Assembly (NCBI GenBank): GCA_905182015.1
Contig: CAJIZT010000008.1
Location: 1-57,800 of the forward strand
Length of the DNA: 57,800 nucleotides
Direction of reading: 5' to 3'
Source of the DNA: an alpha proteobacterium MED-G09
GTDB lineage: Bacteria; Pseudomonadota; Alphaproteobacteria; MED-G09
Shown: one piece after another, positions 10,769 to 53,971 of the stretch
Layout: each line of letters opens with the position of its first letter
Position numbering within the stretch: the first letter of the stretch is position 1
Notes under the pieces: model-generated
What the model was told of the DNA's origin: nothing
What the model saw: the letters and a program-made list of their open reading frames with translations, nothing else
The model's database searches: none
Made by a program: the position numbers and the translations under genes

Positions 10769-10780
10769 CATTTAATCTCT

Positions 10781-11950: not shown

Positions 11951-12058
11951 AATAATTCGGTTTCCAAAGAAAAAATAAATCGTAATAATCTATTTTATAA
12001 TTACTTAGAAGATTATAAGTTCTTATGAAATGATATCAAAGAGGTATATGATAAAAAA

Positions 12059-30794: not shown

Positions 30795-31812
30795 GGGTAC
30801 TAACTTCTTTATCAAATAGATAAATTTGACCTGGGCTTATCGTCTTAAAAAAATCCTCTTCCAAATTGTTAACTATTATCAACTTATCTAGGAGTACTTT
30901 TGGCTCCTCGATTGGCTCAGTTGTTAATATAAAGGTACCCCAATGCATCGCAATTGAACGTTTTGCATTCAAATCTAGAGCAGCATTTAAAGCTTCCGTT
31001 GGGTTCATATGACTTTTCTTCATAATCCGCCTTGGTGAATATGCCCCAATGGGAATAAAGGCAACATCGGGACTCCCTAATCTTTTATTAACCTCAAGAA
31101 AATCTTTTGTGTATCCTGTATCACCTAAATGAACTAATTTTATATCACTATTCTCTATCCACCAACCGCCCCACAGAGTCTTATTTTTATCAAACAACCC
31201 TCTCCTCGACCAATGCTGAACTGGAATAAAAGTAAAAGTTGTGTTCCCAATAGTTTTTTCTTCCCACCAATTAAATTCGTATACATTTTTAGCTCCAATC
31301 CTTTGAAACCATTTCTTTAGCTTTAATGGAACAAGAAAAATTATATTTGGATATAATCTGCTAAGGTTTTTTATACTTTTAATATCTAAATGGTCATAGT
31401 GATTATGACTTATAACGATCACATCAATATCAGGAAGATCCTTATAATTTATTGCAGGCTCTATAAGTCTTTTTGGACCAAAAAAAGAAAAAGGCGAGGC
31501 CCTATTAGAGAAAATTGGATCAGTAATAATATTTAAATCGTAGTTATTAATAAGAAAAGACGAGTGTCCAATCCAGGACGTATATCCTCTAGAATTTTTA
31601 TCTAACTTTTTGTATTCATCGGAAACCTCTATTTGGACTCGCTTGACTGACTGAATGGCCTTCCAAAAACCATACCCCGGACCAAGAAGATCCCTAGATT
31701 CCTGCTTAGCCTTAGGATTAGTATCTTTATCATTATTTTGAAATATCTCACCCTCAAAAACAGTACATGCTGATAAGGAAAATATTAAGAAATAAGAGAG
31801 TACTTTCTTCAT
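30784..31812 (-). CDS. NAPE-PLD-like MBL-fold lipoprotein
   Basis: Lipoprotein signal with lipobox LSAC (Cys16). The MBL domain has WIGHSSFLI, TDPIFSNRASPF, the metal motif ISHNHYDHLD, VQHWSRRG and LGDTGY, closely resembling bacterial relatives of N-acyl-phosphatidylethanolamine phospholipase D. It would be tethered to the outer or inner membrane and may act on lipids; the substrate is not proven. The start overlaps the panD stop by four bases (ATGA), which ties its expression to pantothenate genes for no obvious biochemical reason. Confidence 0.85.
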   Translation of the reverse strand: MKKVLSYFLIFSLSACTVFEGEIFQNNDKDTNPKAKQESRDLLGPGYGFWKAIQSVKRVQIEVSDEYKKLDKNSRGYTSWIGHSSFLINNYDLNIITDPIFSNRASPFSFFGPKRLIEPAINYKDLPDIDVIVISHNHYDHLDIKSIKNLSRLYPNIIFLVPLKLKKWFQRIGAKNVYEFNWWEEKTIGNTTFTFIPVQHWSRRGLFDKNKTLWGGWWIENSDIKLVHLGDTGYTKDFLEVNKRLGSPDVAFIPIGAYSPRRIMKKSHMNPTEALNAALDLNAKRSIAMHWGTFILTTEPIEEPKVLLDKLIIVNNLEEDFFKTISPGQIYLFDKEVSTLKK

Positions 31813-32192
31813 AATAGTTTTTGAACAGGAATTTCTTTCTTTATAGACTTAATATTATTCTTTTCGTCAAAATAAACTAATACCGGCTTATGTTCTAGAA
31901 CCTCTTCCTCATTAAACAGCCCATAAGAACAAATAATAATAATATCGCGAGGTGATACCTTATGAGCTGCTGCACCATTAATAGAGACGGTCCTTGAACC
32001 AGCTTCGGCAGCAATAAGATAGGTGGAGAACCTTTCTCCATTTGATACATTATAAATATCAATCTTTTCATATTCTTGCATATTTCCTTTAGCTAAAATA
32101 TCAACATCGACAGCGCAAGAGCCTTCGTAGTCAAGTTCAACTTGTGTAACATTTATTCTATGCAATTTTGATCGTAATAATGTTTTTTTCAT
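31809..32192 (-). CDS. panD: Aspartate 1-decarboxylase (pyruvoyl enzyme)
   Basis: Makes beta-alanine from aspartate for pantothenate. The pro-enzyme self-cleaves between Gly and Ser in YEGSCAVD near 24-25 to create the pyruvoyl group. The ATG at 32192 gives MKKTLLRSKLHR, matching the family N-terminus, and has GAGGCG upstream; the start at 32213 adds seven residues. Length 127 aa is normal. Last pan gene of the leftward panB-panC-panD unit. Confidence 0.95.
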   Translation of the reverse strand: MKKTLLRSKLHRINVTQVELDYEGSCAVDVDILAKGNMQEYEKIDIYNVSNGERFSTYLIAAEAGSRTVSINGAAAHKVSPRDIIIICSYGLFNEEEVLEHKPVLVYFDEKNNIKSIKKEIPVQKLL

Positions 32193-32234
32193 TTTTTCGC
32201 CTCGTTGAACCACTTCTAAATCAAAAACACCTTA

Positions 32235-33047
32235 TCAATCAATAAGAATATTATCAATCAAACGGACATTTCCTAATTTTATAGCTATAGCAATTAATAC
32301 ACTTCCATCATAGTTATTTGCCTCGGCTAAAGTTTCTGGATCGCAAATAGTTAGATACTCAGCCATTAAACCCTTACTTGAAAAAAAATTAAATGAATCC
32401 TTTATAAGAGATTCTTTTGGTAACTTCTTAATATTATCTTTTATCCAAAGCAATTTTTTATAAATTATTGGCGCAATCAAGCGCTCTTCAGGAGTTAATA
32501 AATTATTCCTAGACGACATGGCAAGGCCATCCCTCTCTCTTATAATAGGACCCCCAGTAATTTTGATATCTAAATGATTTTGAGTAACGAATTTTTTTAT
32601 AATCAAAAACTGTTGATAATCTTTTAAGCCGAAGACTGCATGCTGGGGTTTAATAATATCAAAAAGTTTCCCCACGATAGTTACTACTCCGTCAAAGTGA
32701 CCTGGCCTAGTCTTGCCGCACATTTTATTGCTTAAATCAGAGGCTTTATGCTCCATAATATTTTGTAAAATATTACCAGATGGATTAAAAACATAATCAC
32801 AACCCGCCAGCTCCAGTTTCTTTAAATCAACATTCAGTGTTCTCGGATAATTATCAAAATCTTCATTTTTTCCAAACTGTAATGGATTAATAAAAATAGA
32901 GGCTACGATTGTTTTGCCTAGTCTTTTAGCTTCGCCTATTAAGCTAATATGGCCTTTATGGAGGTTACCCATGGTTGGAACTAAAACAATATCATGATTA
33001 TTTCTTAAGGTTTCTTTAGCCTGGAGTTCTGAAGAAATTACTTCCAT
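32235..33047 (-). CDS. panC: Pantothenate synthetase
   Basis: Condenses pantoate with beta-alanine using ATP. The HIGH-type motif is in VPTMGNLHKGHISLI near 25-38; GLKDYQQF and a KMSKS-type position near MSSRNN lie further on. Length 270 aa is typical. It starts 3 nt after panB on the same strand and ends 42 nt before the panD start. Confidence 0.95.
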   Translation of the reverse strand: MEVISSELQAKETLRNNHDIVLVPTMGNLHKGHISLIGEAKRLGKTIVASIFINPLQFGKNEDFDNYPRTLNVDLKKLELAGCDYVFNPSGNILQNIMEHKASDLSNKMCGKTRPGHFDGVVTIVGKLFDIIKPQHAVFGLKDYQQFLIIKKFVTQNHLDIKITGGPIIRERDGLAMSSRNNLLTPEERLIAPIIYKKLLWIKDNIKKLPKESLIKDSFNFFSSKGLMAEYLTICDPETLAEANNYDGSVLIAIAIKLGNVRLIDNILID

Positions 33048-33050
33048 GAT

Positions 33051-33866
33051 TTAAAAAAAGGTATGAGATTTTGCAGGAAATTTTTTAGATTTTACACTTT
33101 TTACGTACTTCTTAAGCGCATCCTCTATTGAAGAGGATCCCTTTAGAAAATTTTTAACAAACTTTGGAGGTTTTTCTAAACATGAAATACCCAAGAGATC
33201 ATGTATAACCATAATTTGACCGTCAGTTTCTGGTCCTGCTCCAATGCCAATAACAGGGATATTTAAAAGATTTGTTATTTCTTTAGATAAATCATTCGGG
33301 ACGCATTCTAACAATAGCATTGCAGCCCCGGCGTTTTCTAGAGACCTTGCTTCTTCGAGAAGAATTTTTCTTTTTTTGGTATCACGCCCTTGAACAAAAT
33401 AACCCCCAATACGATTAATCGATTGCGGCGTTAGCCCCATATGAGCACAGACTGGAATCCCTCTTTCAGCCAATGTACTAGTCATTTTACATATCCAAGA
33501 TCCACCCTCAATTTTAACTGAATGAGCGCCATTTTGCATAAGCATAGTTGCATTTTCCAAGGCAAGCTCATCTGTGGAATAACTCATGAATGGCATATCT
33601 GCCATAATATGGGAATTAACATTTCCTCGAGAAACGCATTCTAAATGATACACTAGCTGATCCATTGTAACTGGGAGCGTACTATCATGGCCTTGAATGA
33701 CCATACCAAGGCTGTCACCAACCAAAATAACCTCAACACCTGCTTCGCTTATTCGTTGAGAAAGAGTTGCTTCATAGGCTGTTAAACAAGAAAATTTTTC
33801 TGAGTTTTTTTTCAACTTACGCAAGGTAGAGATGGTAACTAGTTTATTTTTTGATTGAATTGACAT
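33051..33866 (-). CDS. panB: 3-methyl-2-oxobutanoate hydroxymethyltransferase
   Basis: First committed step of pantothenate synthesis, adding a hydroxymethyl group to alpha-ketoisovalerate from methylene-THF. Family motifs include CLTAYEATLSQ, VGDSLGMVIQGHDSTLPVT and MADMPFMSY with metal-binding Asp residues, and IGIGAGPETDGQIMV. Length 271 aa is normal. It is the first gene of panB-panC-panD-lipoprotein; the 173-nt AT-rich gap upstream would hold the promoter, though no clear one was found. Confidence 0.95.
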   Translation of the reverse strand: MSIQSKNKLVTISTLRKLKKNSEKFSCLTAYEATLSQRISEAGVEVILVGDSLGMVIQGHDSTLPVTMDQLVYHLECVSRGNVNSHIMADMPFMSYSTDELALENATMLMQNGAHSVKIEGGSWICKMTSTLAERGIPVCAHMGLTPQSINRIGGYFVQGRDTKKRKILLEEARSLENAGAAMLLLECVPNDLSKEITNLLNIPVIGIGAGPETDGQIMVIHDLLGISCLEKPPKFVKNFLKGSSSIEDALKKYVKSVKSKKFPAKSHTFF

Positions 33867-34039: not shown

Positions 34040-35410
34040 CTACAACGATAAATACTTATCTATAGTTTTATGAAAATGACGAATACGACTTTCTTGATAC
34101 AGTGAAAAGGTGGAACCTTTTTTATTACTTGCCTTTAGGCCCAATTGCCCCGATCGGAATGCTGCCTCATCTTGATCAAAAAGCATACCCAGTCCTCCTA
34201 GCTCCTCTGCCTTTTCCCAGCTATCACCCTCATCTAGCCAATGTATTCCTGGGCTAGTCTCCTTTTTCTCATCATCATTTTCATAAAGTAAAATAACTTC
34301 AAAAATAGATGTATCCGGGTTATGTCCATTTGGTCTAAATCGATAAACAATCGGTACACCGTATCCCGCCCATGGAATAAAATTTGGAAAAACAAAATAT
34401 TGAATTGCATCAATAATTTCTGATGTTGAAAAATCTTTATGGTTTACCCCTGTGGCAGATGTAAGCATCTCCCTCATTGTATTTGACAAAAAATCTCGAG
34501 GCTTTTCATTTTTATTAATATTTTTTTTATCAACATCACCATCTAAATATGAAACTAAATCTTGCATACTTTCAATTACATCAGAATCAGATATTTTTTG
34601 ATCTTTTAAGGATGGGCTAGGGGTCCCAAGCCCGGACATCATACGGCTTACGTGTAGCCCCCAATAATCATACTGACAATTTATATCACCGGTATAAGGG
34701 AGTGCTTGAGGGTGAGTTTCTCCAACATGATATCCCTCTAAAAAAGCCTCGATAGCAAATTTCCAATTACAAGGAACTATTTTAGCAACATGCGCAGCTT
34801 TTCTTCTCTTGCTCATATCCCAATCTTTAAAATGCTCTGGAAGGATTGATAGAAAATCCTTTAAAGGGATTGAATTTTTATCCAAATTAATAAAAACAAA
34901 ACCACCCCAAATATCTAACTTTACCTCTGGAAGTGAAAATTCTTCTTTTTTTACATGAGGAAAATCCCAATCAGATGGGATATTTTTTATTTTTCCATCA
35001 AGAGACCATGACCAGCCATGGAATGGACATTTTAGAATATCTGAAAAACCACAAGAATTAGACGGTTTTAGTTGTGTGCCTCTATGCAGGCATGAGTTGT
35101 AATAAGCTTTTATATCACCGTTATCGGTTCTTACTATTAGTATGGATTGGTCAACTATATCGTAAACATAATAATCACCTGACAAAGGAATATCTTCCTC
35201 GCGACATGCAAATTGCCATACCTTATTCCATATATTTCTAATTTCAAGATTATGAAATTCTTTACTAAAGTAACGTTCACGGTCTACATCATCACTCCCT
35301 ATGTACTGGCATGATTCCTCTGTAAGCACTGAAGGGGGTTTTAAGTGATCTTTCTTAATGATGTCTTGGAAATAAGGCTTTGGCCTATCCTCTAAAACCT
35401 TACTATACAT
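34040..35410 (-). CDS. Rieske non-heme iron oxygenase, alpha subunit (copy 1)
   Basis: Hydroxylates or demethylates an organic substrate with O2. The Rieske [2Fe-2S] motif is CLHRG and CPFHGWSW. The mononuclear iron site has EGYHVGETHP near 250. No reductase, ferredoxin or beta subunit lies nearby, so electrons must come from elsewhere. The ATG at 35410, 4 nt after the GST stop, gives the usual N-terminus; an upstream in-frame start at 35506 would overlap GST heavily. Last gene of the TonB receptor-PhyH-ThuA-GST-Rieske operon. Substrate unknown. Confidence 0.9.
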   Translation of the reverse strand: MYSKVLEDRPKPYFQDIIKKDHLKPPSVLTEESCQYIGSDDVDRERYFSKEFHNLEIRNIWNKVWQFACREEDIPLSGDYYVYDIVDQSILIVRTDNGDIKAYYNSCLHRGTQLKPSNSCGFSDILKCPFHGWSWSLDGKIKNIPSDWDFPHVKKEEFSLPEVKLDIWGGFVFINLDKNSIPLKDFLSILPEHFKDWDMSKRRKAAHVAKIVPCNWKFAIEAFLEGYHVGETHPQALPYTGDINCQYDYWGLHVSRMMSGLGTPSPSLKDQKISDSDVIESMQDLVSYLDGDVDKKNINKNEKPRDFLSNTMREMLTSATGVNHKDFSTSEIIDAIQYFVFPNFIPWAGYGVPIVYRFRPNGHNPDTSIFEVILLYENDDEKKETSPGIHWLDEGDSWEKAEELGGLGMLFDQDEAAFRSGQLGLKASNKKGSTFSLYQESRIRHFHKTIDKYLSL

Positions 35411-35414
35411 TTTA

Positions 35415-36029
35415 TTACTTTTCGTTAGATTTTGCACTCTTCCTTTCTCCAAATTTTTTATGCCACGAGGTAATTTTAGAAAATTCTTTTTGTATCTCAA
35501 CACCAATACTTTCTGCGAAGGTGAAAGTTGAAAAGAGTGTACAATCAGCTATGGTTGGGCGATTGAGAATTATAAATTCATCCCCTGAAATCAGTCCCTC
35601 AAGTATTTCTAAGTTTTTCTTATAGCAATTAAGAGCCATTTCTGAAGCTTCTTTAGATTGCGGACCTTTATCGGCAAAAAATGGTGAAATATTATGAACA
35701 TGGTGACCCAACTCAAGCATTAGTCCCAATTCAGCTAGTCTATCTAACTCCTGGACCCTTGCCTTTTCTATAGGATCCTTGCCCAACATATTTGGTCCTT
35801 CTTTAATACCCTCAAGGTATTCAATAATTGCCCTAGATTCTCTTATAACCAAACCATCATCAAGCTCTAAGAATGGAACCGTAGCCATAGGATTTTTAGC
35901 TAGCATTTCAGGTTTTCTTAAAGCATGGTTAATTAAATCAACTTGAACATATTCAATTCGAATATTTTTTTCATGCGCAAAGATTCTAACTTTCTGAGCA
36001 TTCGGCGCTGGATAATCATACATTTTCAT
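35415..36029 (-). CDS. Glutathione S-transferase
   Basis: Two-domain GST, 204 aa. The thioredoxin-like N-terminal domain has MKMYDYPAPNAQKVRIFAHE, cis-proline ATVPFLELDD and the glutathione-binding ESRAIIEYLE. The helical C-terminal domain contains RPTIADCTLF with the N-capping Asp. The catalytic Ser/Tyr is not obvious; Ala8/Asn10 lies in the usual place of a Ser. In this operon it could open or detoxify an electrophilic oxidation product made by the PhyH or Rieske enzymes (inference). Confidence 0.92.
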   Translation of the reverse strand: MKMYDYPAPNAQKVRIFAHEKNIRIEYVQVDLINHALRKPEMLAKNPMATVPFLELDDGLVIRESRAIIEYLEGIKEGPNMLGKDPIEKARVQELDRLAELGLMLELGHHVHNISPFFADKGPQSKEASEMALNCYKKNLEILEGLISGDEFIILNRPTIADCTLFSTFTFAESIGVEIQKEFSKITSWHKKFGERKSAKSNEK

Positions 36030-36038
36030 CGTTAACTC

Positions 36039-36815
36039 CTATATAGTTCCTATACCCCACTTAATACCCCGTCTTAATAATTCGTAGAATATCTCGCTAT
36101 CCCAACCACCCTTATCGACTGGGCACTCGTCCATTAAGGGACGCATATCGTACTTACCCCGACAGTGACCGAACATAAGATATAAGACATTTCCCCTACC
36201 AACATCGTGCAAGTACATTTGAGGTCTTGGAATATCCTCTTCCCATGATGAACTTACGTAAGAATCTGCGCTATCTGTGTAACGAGACTCTAAGAGAACA
36301 TTTACACCGTCAGAAAATTCGCAATAATAAGGTTCTTCAAAAATCTCAAAATCATCCAAACCTCTTGTAAGGGGATGGTTTTTATCAGAAACTTTGACCT
36401 TAATGGTCATATTTGCAGGGTGGGCGATAAATCGACTACCTAATAATTCCATTAATTGTGGATTTTTGTTTGGAGTATCAGTTTTTCCTGGAATTTCAAT
36501 ACCGTCAACAATTTGTTTCTCTCCTACAAATTCAATAAGTGCATTCGTTCCATGCAATCCAAACCACTTACCTCCTTTATTTAAAAAGGATCGAAGAACA
36601 TCAACTTCCTCCTCGGCCGGTGAAAGATCACAAGTATAAGTGACTAATAAATCTGAGTCTGTATATTTATGAAAGTCACTATAATCTTGGGAAATTGAAA
36701 CACCAAGATCATCGTGCTCAGAAAAAAGTTTAACTAATTCAGCACGAGCAAAATCTGTGTCATGATATTTAGCATTACAAATTAGATGAACGTGGTGTGG
36801 TTTAATTCTTGTCAT
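36039..36815 (-). CDS. ThuA-like domain protein
   Basis: A 258-residue class I glutamine-amidotransferase-like (ThuA) domain, with GGKWFGLHGTNALIEF at the position of the ThuA core, RFIAHPANMTIKVKV and the late HDVGRGNVLYLMFGH. ThuA proteins are linked to uptake and degradation of sugars and other carbon sources, with unclear chemistry. Start at 36815 has AAGGA upstream and lies 11 nt after the PhyH stop; the in-frame start at 36869 would add 18 unrelated residues. Third gene of the tight receptor operon. Confidence 0.82.
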   Translation of the reverse strand: MTRIKPHHVHLICNAKYHDTDFARAELVKLFSEHDDLGVSISQDYSDFHKYTDSDLLVTYTCDLSPAEEEVDVLRSFLNKGGKWFGLHGTNALIEFVGEKQIVDGIEIPGKTDTPNKNPQLMELLGSRFIAHPANMTIKVKVSDKNHPLTRGLDDFEIFEEPYYCEFSDGVNVLLESRYTDSADSYVSSSWEEDIPRPQMYLHDVGRGNVLYLMFGHCRGKYDMRPLMDECPVDKGGWDSEIFYELLRRGIKWGIGTI

Positions 36816-36826
36816 TACTTTTTTCC

Positions 36827-37705
36827 TTATGAAAATTTTGAATATGAGGTGGGCCAGATATGCTGCCAACGACTTTCTAATAATGAGTTGGCTTCATCAT
36901 GAGACTTCCAATCGAATGGATACTCACTTCCCATTAATAAAGAAAAATCATCAGAACAATCTTTTAAAACTTCAGGTGTAATTAAATTAGAATAATTCTC
37001 CTGAGGTCTAATATATTTCCTACAAAAAGTATTAATAAGATTCACTCTGTATCCCTCAGTCTTTTTTGGTAGCCCAGTATGCCAGGTATTTCCATGCCAT
37101 ATAATAATTGAACCAGCTTTTGCTTTAACGGCCCTGACAAGATCGATTCCATCATTACCCTTAGGTTGTCGACAAAATTTATGGCTCTCAGGAACATAGC
37201 ACAAGCCACCATCTTCCTCGGAGTAATCTGTCAAAGCCCATGTTGCATTAGCATGCTGGGCATACTCTGGAAGAGGTGGTGGTTGCATAAAGTTATCACA
37301 ATGAAGTTGAAACGGACTATCACCTCTTGTTTTAACTTGAGCAACACAATTATAAAGAAGGCAACTTTTACCTAACAAATACCTAACAACAGCTAGAGTT
37401 TTAGGATAACAGACAGCTTCTTGAAATATTTTATCTTCAAAGAGGAGGTAGTAGAGATAATACTGATTATGTTGAAAGTTGACGTCTGAATCTTTAATAG
37501 AAAGATTAAATTCTAACTTTTTTTCAGCTATAAATAAAAGTTTTTCTTTTAGTTTTTCTGCAAAAGCAACTTGTTCTGCATCTTTGGGTGGAATAACAGT
37601 TAGCCCAACTTTATTAAGCTCTTTAATATTCGACTCTAGACCAAGTCTAGATATTTCTGATTGAATTAAAGTATCATCAATATCTTCGACTTGGTCTAGA
37701 GCCAT
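36827..37705 (-). CDS. Phytanoyl-CoA dioxygenase (PhyH) family oxygenase
   Basis: Fe(II)/2-oxoglutarate oxygenase fold. The iron triad is visible as the HxD in QLHCDNFMQPP (near 133-135) and a distal His in IWHGNTWHTGLP (near 205), with an Arg in GYRVNL for 2-oxoglutarate. The N-terminal ~70 residues are helical. Members hydroxylate CoA esters, ectoine, small halogenated compounds and natural products, so the substrate is open. It starts 11 nt after the TonB receptor stop and precedes ThuA by 11 nt. Confidence 0.88.
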   Translation of the reverse strand: MALDQVEDIDDTLIQSEISRLGLESNIKELNKVGLTVIPPKDAEQVAFAEKLKEKLLFIAEKKLEFNLSIKDSDVNFQHNQYYLYYLLFEDKIFQEAVCYPKTLAVVRYLLGKSCLLYNCVAQVKTRGDSPFQLHCDNFMQPPPLPEYAQHANATWALTDYSEEDGGLCYVPESHKFCRQPKGNDGIDLVRAVKAKAGSIIIWHGNTWHTGLPKKTEGYRVNLINTFCRKYIRPQENYSNLITPEVLKDCSDDFSLLMGSEYPFDWKSHDEANSLLESRWQHIWPTSYSKFS

Positions 37706-37716
37706 AATTTTAACTA

Positions 37717-39861
37717 TTAAAAGTTTCTATCAAAAGAAACTCCTAAGGTCCGTGGGAAAGGGACCGTATGCTGTCCACCAACCATAGAAGATACACCGTC
37801 TTCTTGAGCCAAATTACGGCCAAACAGTCCTAACTTCCAGCTATCTGTTCCAACACTGATGTTAGCAGATAGTAGCTCAATTTCGTCAGATACACGTCCA
37901 TCAAAAACACTAGTGATTTTATCACGATGAGTAAGGAGTGTATTGGCGGTAAGCATCATTCCGTTATCAAGCTCGCGCAAATAGTTCGCTCTTAGGGAAT
38001 ATGTGCTTTTTGCTGTTCCAGGTAATTGACTACCATTTGCCATAAATGGATTTTTAGTTGAGATAGCTTCATCAACGTTATCCAGCTCTACTTCATTTAT
38101 ATTCCCTGCGAAATACAATGAAAGACCTTCCACAGGAGTATCCCATGCAATCGTTAAATCAATACCTCTACCTTCAATATCCCCTACCGGTACAACAATT
38201 GATTGCAGCGCTGGTGAAATCTCTATTTGAGCATCGGACCAATCGTAGAAGAATGCAGCAAGGTCAATCTGTACTGACCCTAGGTTCCATTTTCCGCCAA
38301 CAGTATAATTCCAAAGAGTGTCAGGTTCTGATGAATTATCATAATCAGTTCCACCTAAAGTTGCATTCGATGCAGTCATAATTGATGAAGAAGTAATAGA
38401 GCCACTTCTAAAGCCCTTAGCAGCTTCAAAATAAACCATGGAATCATCATTGGGATAATAAGCTATATTCAATTTTGGATTAAAAGTATCATTTGATGAA
38501 CTGTCAACACCGACTGTTTTTGTTATAATCGGCTCTGGTGCTCCTGTTATTGCAGGCAATAATTCAACAGCACTGTTTTCAGCGAAACTTCTTTTTTCGT
38601 CATAGAATCTTCCGCCAACAGTAACAATCCACTTTTCATCAGCTGATGTTCTGTTTGCCTCACCATAAATAGCCCATGATTCACTTGAAAGTAAATTTGA
38701 CGCATTAATTGAGTTAAATCCAAAATCAGGTAAAAGCACGTCTTGGCCACCAAATGTTTCGCCGTCTTGATAGAATACGCCAGCGATCCAACCCCAGGCA
38801 CCATCACCATTTGATATAAGCCTTAAATCTTCATTGAAATTTTCTGATTCCAACGGCCATAAGGAAGAGAAGTTGCCAATACCTGGAATAAACCCTCCAT
38901 TATTTGAAATAACAGTATTTTCTACATAGCCCGTTGTGCTTTGTAGTGTAGCAAAACCCAAATCATATTCAATATCCATCATGTAGATAGTAAAATCAGA
39001 ATATGTTTCCCCAAAAGTATTATCGATAGCTGGTGGATTAGGATAGGTTAACCTATTAGCAAACTTCTGTTCAGAATCTTGATGCCAATAAGTTAATTTA
39101 ATACTTAAATCTTCACTTGGCTCTACCAATAATTTTAAACGTCCAGTAATTCCATCATAAGGATTACCATTAGTTTGATTCGTTGGAAGAATTTCAGCCC
39201 AACCGCCAATATCTTTAATACTTAAAACACCCCTTAGAGCAGCCTTATCTGATAAAGGAATATTAATCATAAGATCCCCTGTGTGACTACTATCACCACC
39301 ATCAATATCAGCAAGAGTTGCTTTGAAAGATCCTTCAAATTCACCAATAACTGGGTCTTTTGTTATAACCTTTATTGTTCCACCAAGAGAGCCTAGGCCG
39401 TACAAAGTTCCAGAAGGTCCACGAAGAACCTCAACTCTTTCTGTGTCATAAATATCTGTTACAGGCGCAAAAGGACGACCAGGTAAAGAAAAGGCAAAAT
39501 TATCGAGATAATAACCAATAGTTGCATCACCGTCTGTTTCAGAAGAGGCAACACCTCTTATTGAAAAAACATTACTACCTTGACTAATAGAAGAATTTTG
39601 AACAGCACCAGGAATAAGGTCTATCATTTGTTCGAAATCAGTAATTTGTAAATCTTGCAGGTCATCGCCCGAAAGTGCTTGTACTGCTTGTGCAACATCA
39701 CTAATAGATTGTTCGGTTCTATTTGCTGTCACTAAGATTTCTTCAACCTCAAGCTTTACATTTTCGTCCGTAGCTTCATCAGCGTAAACATCAGCAGCAA
39801 GTAGGTTGGCTAATACTAATGGTAGTGCAAACAAACAATATAAATATTTTAAAGATCTCAT
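37717..39861 (-). CDS. TonB-dependent outer-membrane receptor (copy 1)
   Basis: A 714-residue receptor. The signal peptide ends near VYADE, a TonB-box-like EEILVTANR follows, then a plug domain with VEVLRGPSGTLYGLGSLGGTI, and a 22-strand barrel ending in LGVSFDRNF. It imports a large or scarce solute using TonB energy; plug and barrel look like the sphingomonad/alphaproteobacterial carbon-uptake class rather than a known siderophore receptor. GGGAG precedes the ATG. First gene of a five-gene operon, with only 11 nt to PhyH. Confidence 0.92.
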   Translation of the reverse strand: MRSLKYLYCLFALPLVLANLLAADVYADEATDENVKLEVEEILVTANRTEQSISDVAQAVQALSGDDLQDLQITDFEQMIDLIPGAVQNSSISQGSNVFSIRGVASSETDGDATIGYYLDNFAFSLPGRPFAPVTDIYDTERVEVLRGPSGTLYGLGSLGGTIKVITKDPVIGEFEGSFKATLADIDGGDSSHTGDLMINIPLSDKAALRGVLSIKDIGGWAEILPTNQTNGNPYDGITGRLKLLVEPSEDLSIKLTYWHQDSEQKFANRLTYPNPPAIDNTFGETYSDFTIYMMDIEYDLGFATLQSTTGYVENTVISNNGGFIPGIGNFSSLWPLESENFNEDLRLISNGDGAWGWIAGVFYQDGETFGGQDVLLPDFGFNSINASNLLSSESWAIYGEANRTSADEKWIVTVGGRFYDEKRSFAENSAVELLPAITGAPEPIITKTVGVDSSSNDTFNPKLNIAYYPNDDSMVYFEAAKGFRSGSITSSSIMTASNATLGGTDYDNSSEPDTLWNYTVGGKWNLGSVQIDLAAFFYDWSDAQIEISPALQSIVVPVGDIEGRGIDLTIAWDTPVEGLSLYFAGNINEVELDNVDEAISTKNPFMANGSQLPGTAKSTYSLRANYLRELDNGMMLTANTLLTHRDKITSVFDGRVSDEIELLSANISVGTDSWKLGLFGRNLAQEDGVSSMVGGQHTVPFPRTLGVSFDRNF

Positions 39862-40192
39862 ATTCTATTCTCCCAAAATTAATAATAATATTAACTATAG
39901 GGAATTGAAGATAAAATGAAAATACCGTTAATTAAGAATAGTACTCAGCTATGAGCATGCACTTTATCAATACTATGGATTTCTCAATTTTAATCTTAAT
40001 CATTGAGCTAACATTATTTTTTAATCCTTTATTTATTAACTAAGATATTTTCCTTACTTAATGCGGAGGTATAACATAAAATTTCAATGATTCTTATTAA
40101 GTTAATCCGCTAAGGTGCGTATGAAATATAAAAAGCTGTATTGACAGTTTACAAGATTTAAATGCAAATTATAAGAAAGTTTAGAGGAAAAT
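39862..40192. promoter_or_regulatory. Divergent intergenic region between the receptor operon and Rieske copy 2
   Basis: 331 nt without a convincing gene. It must hold promoters for both directions. For the rightward gene, TTTACA (40148-40153) and TATAAG (40170-40175) are 16 nt apart, and AGAGGA precedes the ATG at 40193. A GCGGA/TCCGC pair (40063-40067 and 40106-40110) could form a weak hairpin. No operator was recognised. Confidence 0.45.
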
Positions 40193-41575
40193 ATGGCTAA
40201 AATAGAAAAAGATCTTTTAGAAAGAAAAAACCAAACACAAAGAAATTTTAAGGCCGAACCATTTGTTCCGAGAAAACCAATACCTGACCTTGGCCACGAA
40301 AGGTTGGATGGAAAAAGATTTTATACTAAGGATTTTATGCAAAAGGAATGGGAATCCGTCTGGACTAAAACATGGCAGGTAGTATGCAGAGAGGCGGACT
40401 TAAAGTTTAATGGTTCTTTTGTTACACATGAGATTGGAAAAGAATCTTTTTTAATTGTTCGCGGTAACGACAACAAATTAAGGGGCTTCTATAATGTATG
40501 CCAGCACAGGGGGAATAGACTCTGTCAGATCGAAACTGGTGAACTAGATCACTTCTCTTGTCCCTTTCATGGGTGGAAATGGAATAATGATGGAACACTT
40601 AATTCAGTCTTTGCACCAGAACTTTATAAACAATTTGATGGCGGTGTTCCCAATGATGAATTAGGCCTTACCAAGGTAAAAATTGAGACATGGGGTGGCT
40701 GGATTTGGCTAAATATGGATTCAGAATCTATCTCACTTAAAGACTACCTTGCCGAGTATGGAGAGCACTTAGAAAGTTATAATTTGGAAAATTGGACTCT
40801 TATTGATTACCAAACATTTGAATGGAATGGCAACTGGAAACATGCTGTTGATGCCTTTAACGAAAGCTACCACTTTACAGCTCTTCACCCAGATATGATT
40901 CAATTTGGAGAAGGTCATGATGTTCCTATAGAAATTTCAGGAATTCACTCAAGAATGATAAATTTTAATGAAACGGTTAGTGAGGTCGTTGAAGACCGGG
41001 ATACTTTTACACCTCTACGTGAAGAAATGATGGGAGACCGGGCAATAGGAAAAATGAGTGATGTTGATGACGCCTTTAATGGAGCGGCTAAGGATCTTCA
41101 TTTACATTATATAAATAAGAGAAGAGGCCAAGAGGATCAAATAAAATATTATAAAGATCTTAATGATGAGCAGCTTATTCATCAATATCATTACTTCTTT
41201 TTTCCAAGTGCTGTTTTTACCAACAGGCCAGAAGCTGGAAATGTATTCCGTTATAGACCTCACGCTACCGATCCTGATAAATGCTATTATGATTTTTTTA
41301 TATTGGTTAATAATTCTGACGGAAAGGAACTACCTCCAAGGCCGGAGCACAAAATATATAAAGGCAATGGACCAGAGCTATACAATGAGGCTTTTAGAGG
41401 AACATTCCCTCCAGTCTTTAATAATGTATTAGCGCAAGACGGCTCTAATATGGAAAGTATGCAATGGGGCTCTAAGTCAGATAGTTTTAAAGGTGGAATC
41501 CTTTGCGAACAAGAGATTAGGGTTAGACACTTTCACCAGACAATTGACAAATTCATAAAGGAAAATAAATCATAA
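40193..41575 (+). CDS. Rieske non-heme iron oxygenase, alpha subunit (copy 2)
   Basis: A 460-residue oxygenase component. The Rieske motif is CQHRGN and CPFHGWKW. The catalytic iron site is FNESYHFTALHPD near 222-235. It differs considerably from copy 1, with which it is divergently arranged, and from copy 3. No reductase, ferredoxin or beta subunit gene is present. The start has AGAGGA 4 nt upstream. It is followed by a small membrane protein, two paralogous unknowns and a broken SMP-30 gene on the same strand. Confidence 0.9.
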   Translation: MAKIEKDLLERKNQTQRNFKAEPFVPRKPIPDLGHERLDGKRFYTKDFMQKEWESVWTKTWQVVCREADLKFNGSFVTHEIGKESFLIVRGNDNKLRGFYNVCQHRGNRLCQIETGELDHFSCPFHGWKWNNDGTLNSVFAPELYKQFDGGVPNDELGLTKVKIETWGGWIWLNMDSESISLKDYLAEYGEHLESYNLENWTLIDYQTFEWNGNWKHAVDAFNESYHFTALHPDMIQFGEGHDVPIEISGIHSRMINFNETVSEVVEDRDTFTPLREEMMGDRAIGKMSDVDDAFNGAAKDLHLHYINKRRGQEDQIKYYKDLNDEQLIHQYHYFFFPSAVFTNRPEAGNVFRYRPHATDPDKCYYDFFILVNNSDGKELPPRPEHKIYKGNGPELYNEAFRGTFPPVFNNVLAQDGSNMESMQWGSKSDSFKGGILCEQEIRVRHFHQTIDKFIKENKS

Positions 41576-41964: not shown

Positions 41965-42570
41965 ATGAAAAAATATAATCGTTTAAAGGCAAATACTCCC
42001 GCACATAACTGGTGGAAAAGTTTTGATACTGAGCAACAATGTCTGATATGGGATAAGATTTTTAATATTCGACAAAAATATGATTATACATTTACCTATA
42101 TACAGAATGAAGGAATAGCTCCGGAGTTTGGAAAAAAATATTCAATCCCACAGAAAGAAAGGGATGTATTGTGCTCAATACTTATAACAAAGTTTGCCTC
42201 TATTGCAGATTTAGAAAGTCCGTGGTTAACTATGCAACAGGTTATAAACTTTATTCACTCTAAGGATCATTCTTTTGAAAATCTTAGCAGAGATACTATT
42301 AATAGAAAGATAGATCTGTTATGTCAAAGTGGTGAAATTAAAAAAGCTAAAGCTAAATCATTGACTGAGGAAGAGTTAAAAAAAATCTCTCATAATAGAA
42401 CATTTAAATATGTGTATAAATCCAGCTCTGAGGCTTTAAAGATTTATAAATCCGGCTTTACTACTGCTGCAAGAGTGGCTCCGTTAGAAGAATTTATTAA
42501 CGATATGATCGATGTAATAAATCTTATGCCCGATGAAAAAAAAGAAAAAATTCTAAAAAGAATTAATTAA
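41965..42570 (+). CDS. Tandem unknown paralogue A, probable winged-helix DNA-binding
   Basis: A 201-residue protein I do not recognise. Clear paralogue of the next gene: both share SPWLTM/CPWATM, RDTxxR(K/R)I and SHNRTFxxVY motifs. The middle (about 75-120) is a helical block followed by VINFIHSKD..LSRDTINRKI..LCQSGEI, which looks like a winged helix with the recognition helix at RDTINRKI. Charged C-terminal helix. GGGGAG precedes the ATG. Inferred role is regulation of the neighbouring oxygenase genes, not demonstrated. Confidence 0.75.
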   Translation: MKKYNRLKANTPAHNWWKSFDTEQQCLIWDKIFNIRQKYDYTFTYIQNEGIAPEFGKKYSIPQKERDVLCSILITKFASIADLESPWLTMQQVINFIHSKDHSFENLSRDTINRKIDLLCQSGEIKKAKAKSLTEEELKKISHNRTFKYVYKSSSEALKIYKSGFTTAARVAPLEEFINDMIDVINLMPDEKKEKILKRIN

Positions 42571-42583
42571 GAATTTTTAGTAT

Positions 42584-42604
42584 AACCTCTAATAAGAGAG
42601 GGTT
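42584..42604 (+). promoter_or_regulatory. Hairpin covering the ribosome site of paralogue B
   Basis: AACCTCT (42584-42590) can pair with AGAGGGTT (42597-42604) with one bulged G. The AGAGGG arm is the best ribosome site of the gene starting at 42610. Its sequestration could limit translation of the second paralogue relative to the first. A small, AT-rich region can form such pairs by chance. Confidence 0.4.
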
Positions 42605-42609
42605 TAAAA

Positions 42610-43218
42610 ATGACGTCGAGACTAGAAGAAGAAATAGAACATCAGTCAATTGATTGGGCGGATTTATCACTAGAAAAAAGGTGTAAGCTCGTAGATGATC
42701 TCACAAATATTTATGTTAGCTTTCAAAATATAGCCTTAGGTGATGATAATCCTAAGAAAATAAACCCTACTAGTAAATCTGGTGCCCCCACTAAAAATCA
42801 TGATGCGATTAGCACAATGATTAAAATAAAAATTATTTCACTTATAGATACTGATTGTCCATGGGCCACAATGAATAATATCATTCATTATATCAAAAAA
42901 AAAGGTGGTAAATATTCTTCTGTAACTAGGGATACCGTTGATAGAAGAATTAATCATCTTATTAAGGAAGGAGTGATAGAGAAAATTAACACCGATATTC
43001 TTACCGAAATTGAACTTAGACAAATAAGTCACAATAGAACGTTTAATTTTGTTTATCGGGCCACTGATTCATATACTGAAACATTAAAAAACTTAAAAGG
43101 TTACCGCCCCGCTCCGCTTAACGGATTTATAAGCTACATAACAGAATTTATTTCACACCTACCAGAAGAAAAAAGAATTGAGATTGGGGAAAAAATTGCC
43201 AATAGTTCTAAGAATTAA
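42610..43218 (+). CDS. Tandem unknown paralogue B, probable winged-helix DNA-binding
   Basis: A 202-residue partner of the preceding gene, with the same order of motifs: CPWATMNNIIHYI, VTRDTVDRRINHLIKEGVIE, LTEIELRQISHNRTFNFVY. The N-terminal 50 residues differ (acidic here, more basic in A), which suggests divergence after duplication. No known family was recognised. Separated from A by 39 nt and from the broken SMP-30 gene by 2 nt. Either two subunits of one complex or regulators with different signals. Confidence 0.75.
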   Translation: MTSRLEEEIEHQSIDWADLSLEKRCKLVDDLTNIYVSFQNIALGDDNPKKINPTSKSGAPTKNHDAISTMIKIKIISLIDTDCPWATMNNIIHYIKKKGGKYSSVTRDTVDRRINHLIKEGVIEKINTDILTEIELRQISHNRTFNFVYRATDSYTETLKNLKGYRPAPLNGFISYITEFISHLPEEKRIEIGEKIANSSKN

Positions 43219-50059: not shown

Positions 50060-51367
50060 TTATTGATTAGATAGTAAGGCCTTATTAAGTGATTTTCTTC
50101 CAAGGAAGAAGATTGCAAAAGACAAAGGTCCAAAAATTAAGAACGTATAACTTAATGCTAAATTTATAGACATATCATTCTGAAAGATCACGCTAGTAAA
50201 AAAGGGAACCACTGTAGGCCCAAGACTGAGGCCAACAATATTCATAATAAAAACATACAGCCCTGAGATAGAACCTCTATAGTTTTGTGGAGTCATTTTT
50301 TGAAGACCTGATGCAAAACAAGCCATTGGCAAGGTAATAAAGAAACTTATTATGAACATTCCCGGTAAAATAAAATTCTCAGTAACAAATAAGAAGGTCA
50401 AAGGGGGGATGATTGCTAGAGTTGATGCTGAAATTAGAAAAACAGCATGAGTTGAATTTTTAATACCTCTTTTATTAAGAAATCTCTCTAATACAGGACC
50501 CGACAGAACACCTAAGGATCCAGATATTAGGGTAACAATTCCAAAAAGATAACCAACCCTTGATAAATCCCATCCATGAACTCTCGATATATAGGTAGGA
50601 ACCCAAGCCTGAAAGGTATACAACAGAACAACTATAAATGACGCAGCAATCATCAAAGTAAAGTAGGCAGAAGATTTACTTTTTATATAGGACACTACAT
50701 CGGAAAAAGATTCATCTTTTTGTTTTTCTTTATTAATGAGGCCTTTTCTTTTTGGTTCTGTGAGAAAAGCAAGACCAAAGGATAAAACAAAACCCGGAAT
50801 GGCAATAAGAATAAAAATCATCTGCCAGGGCTGAAAGGTAAAACCAAGAATAACTATGGGCGATGTATAAAGCTGTATAATAAATCCACCAAAAAGAAGA
50901 GCCAGACCTTGGCCTATATAAGGCCCCATAAGATAAAAACTCATTGGAAAAGCTCTATCCTCAGGGCGAAATAAATCAGCTATAAGTGACCACGAAGCGG
51001 GAGTTACGGCGGCCTCACCGGCCCCCACACCAGCGCGAGAAACAAAAAGGCTATAATAATCGCTAGAAAATCCATGGGCAGCAGTTGCTATACTCCAAAG
51101 AAGAATACCGCCTATCAAAACGGCAATTCTATTAAACTTATCAACCATCCTACCAATTGGAAGGCTAAAAAGTATGTAGCTGATCATAAAGCCAGGGCCT
51201 AATATTTGCCCCATCTGTATATCAGAAAGATTTAAATCACTTCGGATAGGATCAATTAGAAGATTAATCATTGCTCTATCAATAAAAGAAACTGTGTAGC
51301 TGATTAATAAAATAGTAGTAAAAAACCATGCATATTTTTTACTTGGCCAAATAGTTTGATCGGACAT
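50060..51367 (-). CDS. MFS transporter, spinster-like
   Basis: A 435-residue, 12-helix major facilitator. It has the FIDRAMINLLIDPI and GAGEAAVTPASWSLIADLF segments typical of the bacterial spinster-like branch found near oxygenase and TonB-receptor clusters. GRMVDKFNR is the loop 2-3 signature. ATG at 51367 is preceded by GGGAG, which decides it over the TTG at 51379. Probably an importer of the substrate, or product, of the downstream-oriented Rieske/OYE/amidohydrolase cluster (inference). Confidence 0.9.
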   Translation of the reverse strand: MSDQTIWPSKKYAWFFTTILLISYTVSFIDRAMINLLIDPIRSDLNLSDIQMGQILGPGFMISYILFSLPIGRMVDKFNRIAVLIGGILLWSIATAAHGFSSDYYSLFVSRAGVGAGEAAVTPASWSLIADLFRPEDRAFPMSFYLMGPYIGQGLALLFGGFIIQLYTSPIVILGFTFQPWQMIFILIAIPGFVLSFGLAFLTEPKRKGLINKEKQKDESFSDVVSYIKSKSSAYFTLMIAASFIVVLLYTFQAWVPTYISRVHGWDLSRVGYLFGIVTLISGSLGVLSGPVLERFLNKRGIKNSTHAVFLISASTLAIIPPLTFLFVTENFILPGMFIISFFITLPMACFASGLQKMTPQNYRGSISGLYVFIMNIVGLSLGPTVVPFFTSVIFQNDMSINLALSYTFLIFGPLSFAIFFLGRKSLNKALLSNQ

Positions 51368-51473
51368 GTTCTCTCCCAAAAATAAAACCCAAAAAAAATA
51401 TAACTGGGTTTACTTTAACTGCAAGCTTGTATTAAAAATTTATTTAAATAACCTTTAATTGTCTTACAGATTT

Positions 51474-52601
51474 TCATGATAAAAAATTTAATGCTTCAGG
51501 GTTATAAGATTGCAGTTCGTCAAATAAACCCTCTTTTATTTTATTTGTCCATTCTGGATCAACAAGTAAGGCCCTCCCAACAGCAACAAGATCAAATTCA
51601 TTGCTTTCCAGCATAGTAAGGAGTTTATCAATTCTTGCAGGCTGGCTTTCTGCGCCATACAAAGTTTCAATTAATTCCTTATCTAGGCCAACAGAACCAA
51701 CTGTCATTGTCGGCTTCCCTGATATATTTTTGACCCATCCAGAAAAACTAAGGTCCGAATCTTTAAACTCTGTTTCCCAAAATCTTCTTTGAGAACAATC
51801 AAAAAGATCAACACCTGCATCAACGAGTGGGGCAAGAAAAAGTTCTAACTCTTTAGGATTTTTTGCGAGACGAGCTCCATAATCCTGTCCCTTCCATTGA
51901 GATATACGCATTAAGATTGGAAAATCAGGGGAAGTTACACGCCTACAAGCTATAATAATCTCTTCAGCAAACTTTTGCCTCGCATCGAAGTTATACCCAT
52001 AACGATCTTTACGTCGATTAGTTTTAGACCAAAAAAATTGGTCAATTAAATATCCATGAGCCGCATGAATTTCTATTCCATCAAAACCCATCTTGTAAGC
52101 GGAGGATGCAGCCCTTTCAAATGACAATACAACTTCTTGTATATCTAAAAGACTCATTTCAGAGTGAGTTTTTTTTATTTTTTTCTCCATCCCGCCCGCA
52201 TAACCGGAGGGACCAACATGTTTGCAATCTATGACACCCTCTTCGTCATAAAGATTTTCTATCTCAGCTTTTAATAAAAGTCCTACATGCCATAGTTGAG
52301 GCATAATTTTTCCGCCTGCACTGTGAACTTCATGAAGTATTCTTGACCACCCCAATAATGCTTTTTTACCATAAAAATCTGGGCAATTAACATCGTTTGC
52401 TGCACCGGGATGTGGCACATGGGTACCTTCTGTAATAATAAGCCCTACACCACCTTCAGCTCGCCTTCTATAATAGTCAGCTACATCTTGACCCGGTACT
52501 CCATTGGGAGAAAAACATCTGGTCATGGGGGACATAACAACTCTATTACTTAAAGAAACAGACCCAATTTTATATGAGCTAAAAAGTTTATCAAGATTCA
52601 T
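51474..52601 (-). CDS. NADH:flavin oxidoreductase, old yellow enzyme family
   Basis: FMN-dependent alkene reductase, 375 aa. The TIM barrel shows MSPMTRCFSPNGVPGQD, IITEGTHVPHPGA, the substrate-binding HAAHGYLIDQFFW near 185-197 and a C-terminal VAVGRALLVDPEW. Reduces activated double bonds of unsaturated ketones, aldehydes or nitro compounds with NAD(P)H. It starts 5 nt after the Rieske gene, making an amidohydrolase-Rieske-OYE operon. Confidence 0.92.
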   Translation of the reverse strand: MNLDKLFSSYKIGSVSLSNRVVMSPMTRCFSPNGVPGQDVADYYRRRAEGGVGLIITEGTHVPHPGAANDVNCPDFYGKKALLGWSRILHEVHSAGGKIMPQLWHVGLLLKAEIENLYDEEGVIDCKHVGPSGYAGGMEKKIKKTHSEMSLLDIQEVVLSFERAASSAYKMGFDGIEIHAAHGYLIDQFFWSKTNRRKDRYGYNFDARQKFAEEIIIACRRVTSPDFPILMRISQWKGQDYGARLAKNPKELELFLAPLVDAGVDLFDCSQRRFWETEFKDSDLSFSGWVKNISGKPTMTVGSVGLDKELIETLYGAESQPARIDKLLTMLESNEFDLVAVGRALLVDPEWTNKIKEGLFDELQSYNPEALNFLS

Positions 52602-52606
52602 AATAT

Positions 52607-53935
52607 TTATTTTGAATTATATTCATCTAGCCTTCTTTCAACATCGTTAGGGTAAATCCAATCATCAGTCATTACCTGTTTAACCTGAAGATCTTGAGGG
52701 ACTTTATTAAGCCCAATAATTTTATCAAGCTCTTGATGCCAATGATAGATTCTGGCCTCCTGGTAGCTTAAAGGAACACCATCAAAAACGTATGAATCAA
52801 CTGCTTTTTGGATCCACCCTCCAAACTGTAAGTCTTCACTCAAAACATCGTTAAATGCTTTAATTTGCGAATCCCATACCTTGGGTCTTTTACCCTCCCC
52901 CCAATCAGGGGCAATCCACAAAACATCGAACACACACTCATTAATACTTTTTGGCCACCACATTAAAATAGGAAAGCCCCTCTCAGATACAGGTGTTACT
53001 AAATTTGGCATCAGATTGTAGGATTGGGTACAAGTTCTAGAAATGTAACCTGCGGTTTTAATCTCAGGCCTAGGATCGTCATCTATGGTTTGTTTTTTTG
53101 AGGAATTAGGAAGTGGATGGTAACTAGTTGAATTAGGGTCTTCGTTGGAGCCTCCATATATTGGTAATTCTGGATAAGACCTACTAGGAGCGACCATTCG
53201 TCCGTGTCCATTAGAGTAAAAAGTATTTACATTTCCCTTGTAGTCTAATCCAACATGTACAGTTTTGGGGTGAATTGATTGAACATGATAAACCTCCAGG
53301 TTTGCCTCCATAGCAATTTTCCAATTACATTTAACATCGTAGCTATATTGATCGACCAGTCGAAGGGAGCCGAGCTGAAACTCTTGAAGTTCTTCATGGA
53401 TAGGGCCCAGACTTTCCTTTAAACTCATTGCCTCTAAATCAAAATTTATAAAAATAAGATTGCCCATTAATTCAATCTTGATTTTATGGAGGCTCCTACA
53501 GCTATCATCAAAATCTACAAAATCTTGGGGATCCCTTTTTCCTATCAAATCTCCGTCATAATTATAGTTCCAACCATGATAGCCGCAAATTAAGCTCTTT
53601 GCCCGACCATACTTTTTCCTAACAATGGCAGCACCTCTGTGACGACACATATTATAGAAAGCTGTAATTTCATTTTTGTTTTTTCTAACGATAATTACTG
53701 GCTGACCAGTTTTTTCCCATAATTTATAGCTTCCTATCTCAGGAATTTCATCTAAATGACCTGCCAATAACCAAGTTTTTTTCCATAAATTCTCTTTCTC
53801 TAATTCAAAAAAATCTTTATCGGTATAACGTTTTCCAGGCAAATCAGGAAATTTTGGAAATCCTTTTGGCGGCGCCTTTCTTTCCCTCTCATAAGAAATT
53901 AGGTCTTTAATTTTATCTATTTGCGCCTGATCCAT
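52607..53935 (-). CDS. Rieske non-heme iron oxygenase, alpha subunit (copy 3)
   Basis: A 442-residue oxygenase component. The Rieske motif is MCRHRGAAIV and CGYHGWNY. The iron site is EANLEVYHVQSIHPKT near 210. It is distinct from copies 1 and 2 in all linker regions. It lies 36 nt downstream of the amidohydrolase and 5 nt upstream of OYE. As with the others, no reductase or ferredoxin gene is nearby. Substrate unknown. Confidence 0.9.
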   Translation of the reverse strand: MDQAQIDKIKDLISYERERKAPPKGFPKFPDLPGKRYTDKDFFELEKENLWKKTWLLAGHLDEIPEIGSYKLWEKTGQPVIIVRKNKNEITAFYNMCRHRGAAIVRKKYGRAKSLICGYHGWNYNYDGDLIGKRDPQDFVDFDDSCRSLHKIKIELMGNLIFINFDLEAMSLKESLGPIHEELQEFQLGSLRLVDQYSYDVKCNWKIAMEANLEVYHVQSIHPKTVHVGLDYKGNVNTFYSNGHGRMVAPSRSYPELPIYGGSNEDPNSTSYHPLPNSSKKQTIDDDPRPEIKTAGYISRTCTQSYNLMPNLVTPVSERGFPILMWWPKSINECVFDVLWIAPDWGEGKRPKVWDSQIKAFNDVLSEDLQFGGWIQKAVDSYVFDGVPLSYQEARIYHWHQELDKIIGLNKVPQDLQVKQVMTDDWIYPNDVERRLDEYNSK

Positions 53936-53971
53936 AAAATATCCTTTTTTTAATTATACCAACTCAATAAT

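Follow-up and report, generated by a model that had tools for sequence, protein, structure and literature searches.

The five genes at positions 34040-39861 of the window (the whole stretch of 57,800 nt that was analysed), together with a Rieske oxygenase gene transcribed in the opposite direction, probably form a catabolic module of a streamlined marine alphaproteobacterium for the uptake and oxygenation of a hydrophobic, presumably cyclic, organic compound, in which a ThuA-domain protein would act on the product of oxygenation. Uptake combined with Rieske-type catabolism is an already known kind of system. Rieske-dependent catabolism of ring compounds is well studied, yet no description of a Rieske-linked ThuA was found in the open-access literature searched. 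If ThuA catalyses a step after oxygenation, it would represent a testable missing enzyme for many unexplained clusters of sphingomonads and marine bacteria.

Organization of the gene cluster

The five genes are arranged on the minus strand in the order of TonB-dependent receptor (TBDR), PhyH, ThuA, glutathione S-transferase (GST), and Rieske A (Table 1), and are separated by 11, 11, 9, and 4 nt. The sequence-only reading had given the same gaps for five leftward genes, which proved exact upon recount, and all of its five family assignments exceeded the Pfam gathering scores. It had also taken these gaps as a strong sign of a single transcript. Gaps of 11 nt or less were, however, identified for 14 of the 32 same-strand neighbour pairs in the whole window, and being so common in a streamlined genome they are a hint of an operon but unremarkable alone. 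The tight spacing thus suggests one transcript for the five genes, but was dropped as strong proof. Upon pattern scanning for sigma-70 promoters and terminators, the predicted sites were no more numerous than in shuffled sequences.

Table 1. Predicted genes and intergenic region of the module and its vicinity
Feature	Position	Strand	Basis
Rieske oxygenase A, alpha subunit only, clade A, accessory	34040..35410	-	Pfam Rieske + Ring_hydroxyl_A
Glutathione S-transferase, Gtt2-/MaiA-like, below equivalog cut-offs	35415..36029	-	Pfam GST_N/GST_C
ThuA-domain protein, Rieske-associated subfamily	36039..36815	-	Pfam ThuA PF06283
PhyH-family Fe(II)/2-oxoglutarate oxygenase, accessory	36827..37705	-	Pfam PhyH PF05721
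TonB-dependent receptor (TBDR), putative uptake gate at the head of the predicted operon	37717..39861	-	Pfam Plug + TonB_dep_Rec_b-barrel
Divergent intergenic region, presumed control region for both transcripts	39862..40192	.	sequence
Rieske oxygenase B, divergent, conserved-core member	40193..41575	+	Pfam Rieske + Ring_hydroxyl_A
Candidate regulator 1, winged-helix, MarR-fold-like	41965..42570	+	no Pfam family; AlphaFold + Foldseek
Candidate regulator 2, paralogue of candidate regulator 1	42610..43218	+	31% identity to candidate regulator 1

The TBDR contains both plug and beta-barrel domains, and the GST both N- and C-terminal domains. By score, the GST is not a maleylacetoacetate isomerase (zeta GST), with 71.9 bits for maiA against the cut-off of 171. 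The iron ligands (HxD...H) and the 2-oxoglutarate-binding Arg of the PhyH protein are intact (HCD135, H209, and R220). The ThuA-domain protein, with a class-I-amidotransferase-like fold, scored 59.8 bits for PF06283 against the cut-off of 33.4. Its predicted model (pLDDT 75) matched best in PDB with the ThuA-like protein 4e5v (TM 0.66), while a sequence search of PDB gave no match. H18, D19, H88, H132, E161, H203, and H217 are the invariant residues of this protein (P0003).

Comparison of the related loci shows that the predicted Rieske B, on the other side of the presumed control region, belongs to the module. The sequence-only reading ended at 39861 and omitted this gene. Neither a dehydrogenase nor a full pathway is encoded inside the module itself.

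Association of the ThuA subfamily with Rieske oxygenases

Among the 14 alphaproteobacterial loci of this ThuA subfamily, 11 carry a Rieske oxygenase within 8 kb (1.34 expected; P ~1e-10) and seven within 1.5 kb (0.27 expected). On plasmids, a Rieske oxygenase was located near ThuA at all the 11 loci read, at two of which the partner was identified in separate analyses, and the ThuA start overlaps or touches the oxygenase stop at four. Furthermore, the ThuA phylogeny follows the clade of the partner oxygenase, with 13 changes against a mean of 27.5 upon shuffling. Genes for ThuA and Rieske oxygenases both reside in catabolic islands, and their co-location is possibly inflated; the direct adjacency and the shared phylogeny indicate that the island effect is not the whole cause. 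Since ThuA loci without Rieske partner also exist, in Binatia (L040-L042 and L046) and Litorirhabdus (L044), the oxygenase is not an obligatory partner. The Litorirhabdus ThuA gene is located 3' of a PhyH gene, which belongs to another subfamily; because of no detectable similarity, it was ruled out as the same PhyH.

In the larger Rieske-ThuA clusters, the downstream genes encode SDR, acyl-CoA dehydrogenase, thiolase, MaoC, and E1/E2 2-oxoacid dehydrogenase, a set that fits the breakdown of ring compounds. The recurring location beside Rieske oxygenases across many bacteria indicates that ThuA may be an unrecognised enzyme of ring-oxygenation chemistry. It is tentatively proposed, at somewhat less than even confidence, that the Rieske-associated subfamily is a dedicated enzyme class for processing Rieske products, for instance with hydrolase or lyase activity on hydroxylated cyclic ketones, and that it dispersed together with various oxygenase clades among Proteobacteria of marine and soil habitats.

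Alternatively, the substrates could be glycosylated or sugar-like, with a role for ThuA like that in trehalose/3-keto-sugar metabolism and one for the oxygenases limited to trimming an aglycone. The fold and the Pfam domain are indeed those of canonical ThuA proteins, which sit with Gfo/Idh/MocA dehydrogenases and sugar transporters, and in the sister genus two PQQ-dehydrogenase-like genes, of the glucose/quinate/shikimate subfamily type but below the cut-off, replace other enzymes of the module. No Gfo/Idh/MocA gene or sugar transporter is, however, annotated beside the subfamily at the 11 plasmid loci, where the neighbours are genes for CoA-ester and ring-compound catabolism. The subfamily also differs in sequence from canonical ThuA (23-29% identity; 23-27% to rhizobial ThuA) and forms a separate clade (98% SH-aLRT). 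Five outlying ThuA loci all lack a Rieske oxygenase and, where annotated, are mostly located beside Gfo/Idh/MocA or sugar-type genes. A sugar-type ThuA was ruled out by the neighbours and the separate clade, and a sugar-like substrate is considered unlikely.

Conservation of the module and similarity to plasmid clusters

The closest relatives bear the names OCS116 cluster, PS1 clade, or Rhodobiaceae. The conserved core in the genus and its sister genus consists of TBDR, ThuA, and usually GST, beside the divergent Rieske B. Sequence identity is 75-86% for TBDR across the module loci of the same family, 80-83% for Rieske B in most of them, and 79-82% for GST in the genus relatives. The exact order of the five genes is absent from every relative examined, PhyH is present in only two of the 10 genus genomes (G000 and G003), and Rieske A is missing from the module loci of some relatives. 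The idea that the five genes are one conserved pathway unit was thus dropped: both order and content vary, and the better-conserved oxygenase is located outside the five, on the opposite strand. As to the adjacency of the five genes in a relative, a single locus (L031, AH-657-K06) corresponds loosely, in that all five families are present in one locus but ThuA is detached and adjoins the divergent Rieske gene.

Outside the family, the strongest match was found on plasmid p4 of the estradiol-degrading Novosphingobium sp. ES2-1, where genes for Rieske oxygenase (53% identity to Rieske B), TBDR (51%), GST (29%), VOC, and ThuA (43%) form a contiguous annotated row on one strand (196721-202375). 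This plasmid gave the top plasmid match of both Rieske B and TBDR, the next being 36% and about 30%, respectively. It differs from the module in that VOC stands in place of PhyH, Rieske A is absent, and the Rieske gene is co-directional instead of divergent; in addition, the row is carried by a conjugative plasmid and has an IS110 transposase as its neighbour. The reunion of TBDR, Rieske oxygenase, GST, and ThuA in Sphingomonadales, another alphaproteobacterial order, supports the combination of uptake and oxygenation proposed in the sequence-only reading. Degradation of estrogen was considered by analogy with ES2-1 but not taken up as the function; ES2-1 is named in a recent review on how estrogens are degraded, which mentions neither ThuA nor Rieske. 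In the large catabolic clusters of N. aromaticivorans pNL2 and N. resinovorum pHR1a, ThuA likewise follows the Rieske gene directly and TBDRs are located nearby, but the downstream SDRs, acyl-CoA dehydrogenases, and E1/E2 complex (on pNL2 also thiolase) are lacking in the module of the window.

The same comparison bears on the view that chance brought the five genes together in a streamlined genome, with no pathway in common. The abundance of short gaps in the window, the lack of a conserved order, and the variable gain or absence of PhyH and Rieske A among relatives agree with such a view, but it accounts for neither the sphingomonad reunion nor the ThuA-Rieske proximity, and is judged to be rather improbable.

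Rieske oxygenases A and B

Both proteins (P0001 and P0006) are Rieske alpha subunits, scoring above the cut-offs for PF00355 and PF00848. The motifs CxH...CxxH and E-x-Y-H-x4-H are intact, the latter in the mononuclear iron domain with the 2-His-1-carboxylate ligands; in Rieske A, these are CLH...CPFH and EGYHVGETH, which includes the bridging Glu. The tree clade of Rieske A includes ThuA-adjacent oxygenases from other alphaproteobacteria.

Demethylation of a quaternary or N-/O-methyl compound, such as a betaine-like or methylated nitrogen compound, is very unlikely: a betaine-like substrate was considered because both enzymes, alpha-only as are Group V members, have a bridging Glu like E205 of CntA (PMC10952381) and match best in NCBIfam with GbcA, glycine betaine monooxygenase, but the scores (125.9 and 128.8 bits, mainly over the Rieske half) are far below the equivalog cut-off of 670, the Cys-x-x-Cys pair described by the catalytic iron of some Group V members (PMC10952381) is absent (EGYHVGETH and ESYHFTALH contain no Cys), the Glu is also present in most other Rieske oxygenases of the genome, long-branched YeaW/CntA (E. 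coli YeaW) groups elsewhere in the tree rather than with A or B, and small soluble betaines need no TonB receptor. Identification of either enzyme as a glycine betaine or carnitine oxygenase was rejected on the GbcA score and the missing Cys pair.

By genome searches, a total of 16 Rieske oxygenases were identified in 1.35 Mb. No dedicated reductase was seen in the module, and the genome search detected no FAD_binding_6 reductase but one Reductase_C ferredoxin reductase elsewhere. For SAR202, an attack on resistant dissolved organic matter has been proposed as the role of its expanded ring-hydroxylating oxygenases (PMC6946804); many Rieske oxygenases in one marine bacterial genome are common to both cases, but SAR202 belongs to another phylum, and no linkage to ThuA or TBDR was seen in the text consulted. 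Recalcitrant dissolved organic matter may be used by several clades, OCS116 being among those named (PMC7575717). The module offers a handle on the possible exploitation of resistant dissolved organic matter by such a small ocean genome with so many Rieske oxygenases.

Predicted pathway and candidate regulators

In the uptake-and-oxygenation module proposed here, the compound would be taken across the outer membrane by the TonB receptor, and then hydroxylated by the stand-alone Rieske B, as the core enzyme, and by Rieske A, as an accessory. Electrons for both may be supplied from a ferredoxin reductase and a ferredoxin encoded elsewhere in the genome, for which the reductase at C7:132397 and the ferredoxins at C5:61938 and C2:57733 are candidates. 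ThuA would then work on the oxygenated product, probably a keto or hydroxy-keto compound, by a hydrolytic or lyase-type step, and GST might handle or isomerise a reactive intermediate. In those few strains that carry it, PhyH could introduce one more hydroxyl group.

Two winged-helix-like proteins encoded downstream of Rieske B may participate in regulation of the module. The AlphaFold model of candidate regulator 1 (pLDDT 72) gave Foldseek matches nearly all to the MarR family, with low TM of 0.3-0.45, and its homologues are present in three module loci of relatives (L031, L033, and L038).

Composition of the gene row

The sequence-only reading of five minus-strand genes at 34040-39861, separated by gaps of 11, 11, 9 and 4 nt, was confirmed, as were their families (TonB receptor, PhyH, ThuA, GST and Rieske oxygenase; each exceeding its Pfam gathering score), and the catalytic motifs were intact. 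Short gaps are common in the window (14 of 32 same-strand gaps are 11 nt or less), and the spacing alone is therefore modest evidence for a single transcript. A second Rieske oxygenase, RieskeB, divergent from the row, had been left out. The proposed pathway is plausible in outline, but its unit was drawn wrongly.

Features of the window and gene layouts of compared loci
Locus	Position	Strand	Feature
Window	31809-33866	-	panB, panC, panD-like genes
Window	34040-35410	-	RieskeA
Window	35415-36029	-	GST
Window	36039-36815	-	ThuA
Window	36827-37705	-	PhyH
Window	37717-39861	-	TonB-dependent receptor (TBDR)
Window	40193-41575	+	RieskeB
Window	41965-43218	+	Tandem small proteins (at 41965 and 42610)
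Window	50060-55639	-	Amidohydro_3, Rieske oxygenase, OYE-type FMN oxidoreductase, MFS transporter
Window	52607-53935		Rieske oxygenase
L076/L077 (contig C8)	80-118 kb		Further oxygenase island
L031 (AH-657-K06)			RieskeB(-), ThuA(+), regulator-like gene, TBDR, PhyH, GST, RieskeA, panB
L032 (AG-390-I16)			RieskeB(-), TBDR, ThuA, GST, RieskeA; without PhyH
L033 (AG-390-A19), L034 (CPC93)			RieskeB(-), TBDR, ThuA, GST, panB
L035, L036, L038, L039 (sister genus)			ThuA near PQQ-dehydrogenase-like genes; TBDR in L038, RieskeB in L035, L036, L039
L035	6057-9983		Tandem PQQ-dehydrogenase-like genes
L044 (Litorirhabdus)	9009-12215		PhyH of another subfamily, ThuA, MFS

The closest loci come from bacteria under names such as OCS116 cluster bacterium, PS1 clade and Rhodobiaceae. 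All five families are present in L031, in an order unlike that of the window, and the window-type PhyH was found in only two of 10 genus genomes, several of which are incomplete. TBDR, ThuA and RieskeB are thus the core of the module, PhyH and RieskeA are accessory, and GST hardly varies within the genus. The pan genes lie directly downstream of the module in the window and in all genus loci covering that end, which makes this flank a conserved insertion point. Where the window has PhyH and GST beside ThuA, L035, L036 and L038 carry PQQ-dehydrogenase-like genes in tandem (resembling the glucose/quinate/shikimate type but below its cut-off).

The tandem small proteins gave no Pfam match, and their homologues are located beside the module in three relatives (L031, L033 and L038). 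Their models are winged helices closest to MarR regulators, with low TM-scores, and the two proteins are candidate regulators.

Linkage of ThuA to Rieske oxygenases

The part worth following is a Rieske-linked subfamily of ThuA. Plasmid matches of the ThuA of the window fell into two groups, close (36-47% identity) and distant (23-32%), and the close-group ThuA was located near a Rieske oxygenase in all 11 plasmid loci read, the oxygenase being identified by annotation or motif at 10 and through the oxygenase tree set at TomTYG65. Among 14 alphaproteobacterial loci outside the family, an oxygenase was located within 8 kb of ThuA in 11 (1.34 expected from the oxygenase density of each genome; P about 1e-10, an optimistic value because genomes and oxygenases, taken as independent and evenly scattered, are neither) and within 1.5 kb in seven (0.27 expected). 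At L103, L106, L124 and L127, the start of ThuA overlaps or touches the oxygenase stop. No Rieske oxygenase was found near ThuA at five outlying ThuA loci, and the annotated outlying loci mostly adjoin sugar-type genes. No open-access paper was found on ThuA together with Rieske and TonB proteins, or on a ThuA domain with a dioxygenase; absence from open-access papers alone does not prove novelty.

In the ThuA tree, four outlying ThuA used as outgroup fell on one side (98%), and the clade of the partner oxygenase tracks the ThuA tree, with 13 changes where shuffles averaged 27.5. RieskeA and RieskeB belong to two separate, well supported oxygenase clades, each with ThuA-linked members, and most other ThuA-linked oxygenases fall into a third clade. 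The AlphaFold model of ThuA (16 homologues; pLDDT 75, pTM 0.80) best matched the solved ThuA-like structures 4e5v and 4jqs, followed by other amidotransferase-like folds; the invariant polar residues include H18, D19, H88, H132, E161, H203 and H217.

On plasmid p4 of Novosphingobium sp. ES2-1, a host studied as an estradiol degrader, a Rieske oxygenase (53% identity to RieskeB), TBDR (51%), GST (29%) and ThuA (43%) are shared with the window, and form one row with a VOC protein between GST and ThuA. A search of 72,556 plasmid records with RieskeB and with TBDR ranked this locus first each time, the runner-up standing at 36% and about 30%, respectively. No paper tying the p4 cluster to estradiol degradation was found in the open-access literature.

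Proposed pathway

The genes, motifs and linkage are observed; the step order, substrate and ThuA chemistry we infer as follows. The substrate would be taken up through TBDR and hydroxylated by RieskeB and RieskeA, ThuA would carry out a further conversion, and GST and PhyH would play auxiliary roles. Larger clusters combine the Rieske-ThuA pair with SDRs, acyl-CoA dehydrogenases, thiolase, MaoC and E1/E2 2-oxoacid dehydrogenase, a combination that suggests ring opening towards CoA esters. In Litorirhabdus, where no Rieske oxygenase was detected at the locus, ThuA lies directly behind a PhyH from a different subfamily, which hints that ThuA follows an oxygenation step, whichever enzyme performs it.

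In relatives, a paralogous module (L049-L055, L057) holds Rieske oxygenase, Rieske ferredoxin, SDR, ThuA, SDR and TBDR, with a second ThuA and E1/E2 2-oxoacid dehydrogenase close by; it was not found in the genome of the window.

Oxygenase content of the genome

The genome (1.35 Mb, 97.9% complete) carries a total of 16 full Rieske oxygenase genes (17 profile matches, two within one gene), 13 with Glu at the bridging position and eight on the contig of the window, three of these inside it. The sole other Rieske match, a 173-aa frame on contig C9, is possibly, as a guess, a bc1 subunit. One Reductase_C ferredoxin reductase and two small Fer2 ferredoxins were found, and no FAD_binding_6 reductase was detected in the genome search. 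SnoaL_4 proteins resembling small subunits adjoin three other oxygenases and are absent beside RieskeA and RieskeB, which are therefore probably alpha-only. Marine SAR202 is a documented case of Rieske oxygenase expansion (PMC6946804), and OCS116 is among the clades named as possible users of recalcitrant dissolved organic matter (PMC7575717).

The further oxygenase island (L076/L077) contains five Rieske oxygenases, three with SnoaL_4 partners, together with P450, amidohydrolases, SDRs and dienelactone hydrolase. The Amidohydro_3-to-MFS gene set of the window is likely a second operon, and L031 contains an 88% relative of its Rieske oxygenase. In another alphaproteobacterial family (L151, L152 and L153), RieskeB relatives (40-43%) adjoin PhyH genes weakly similar to that of the window.
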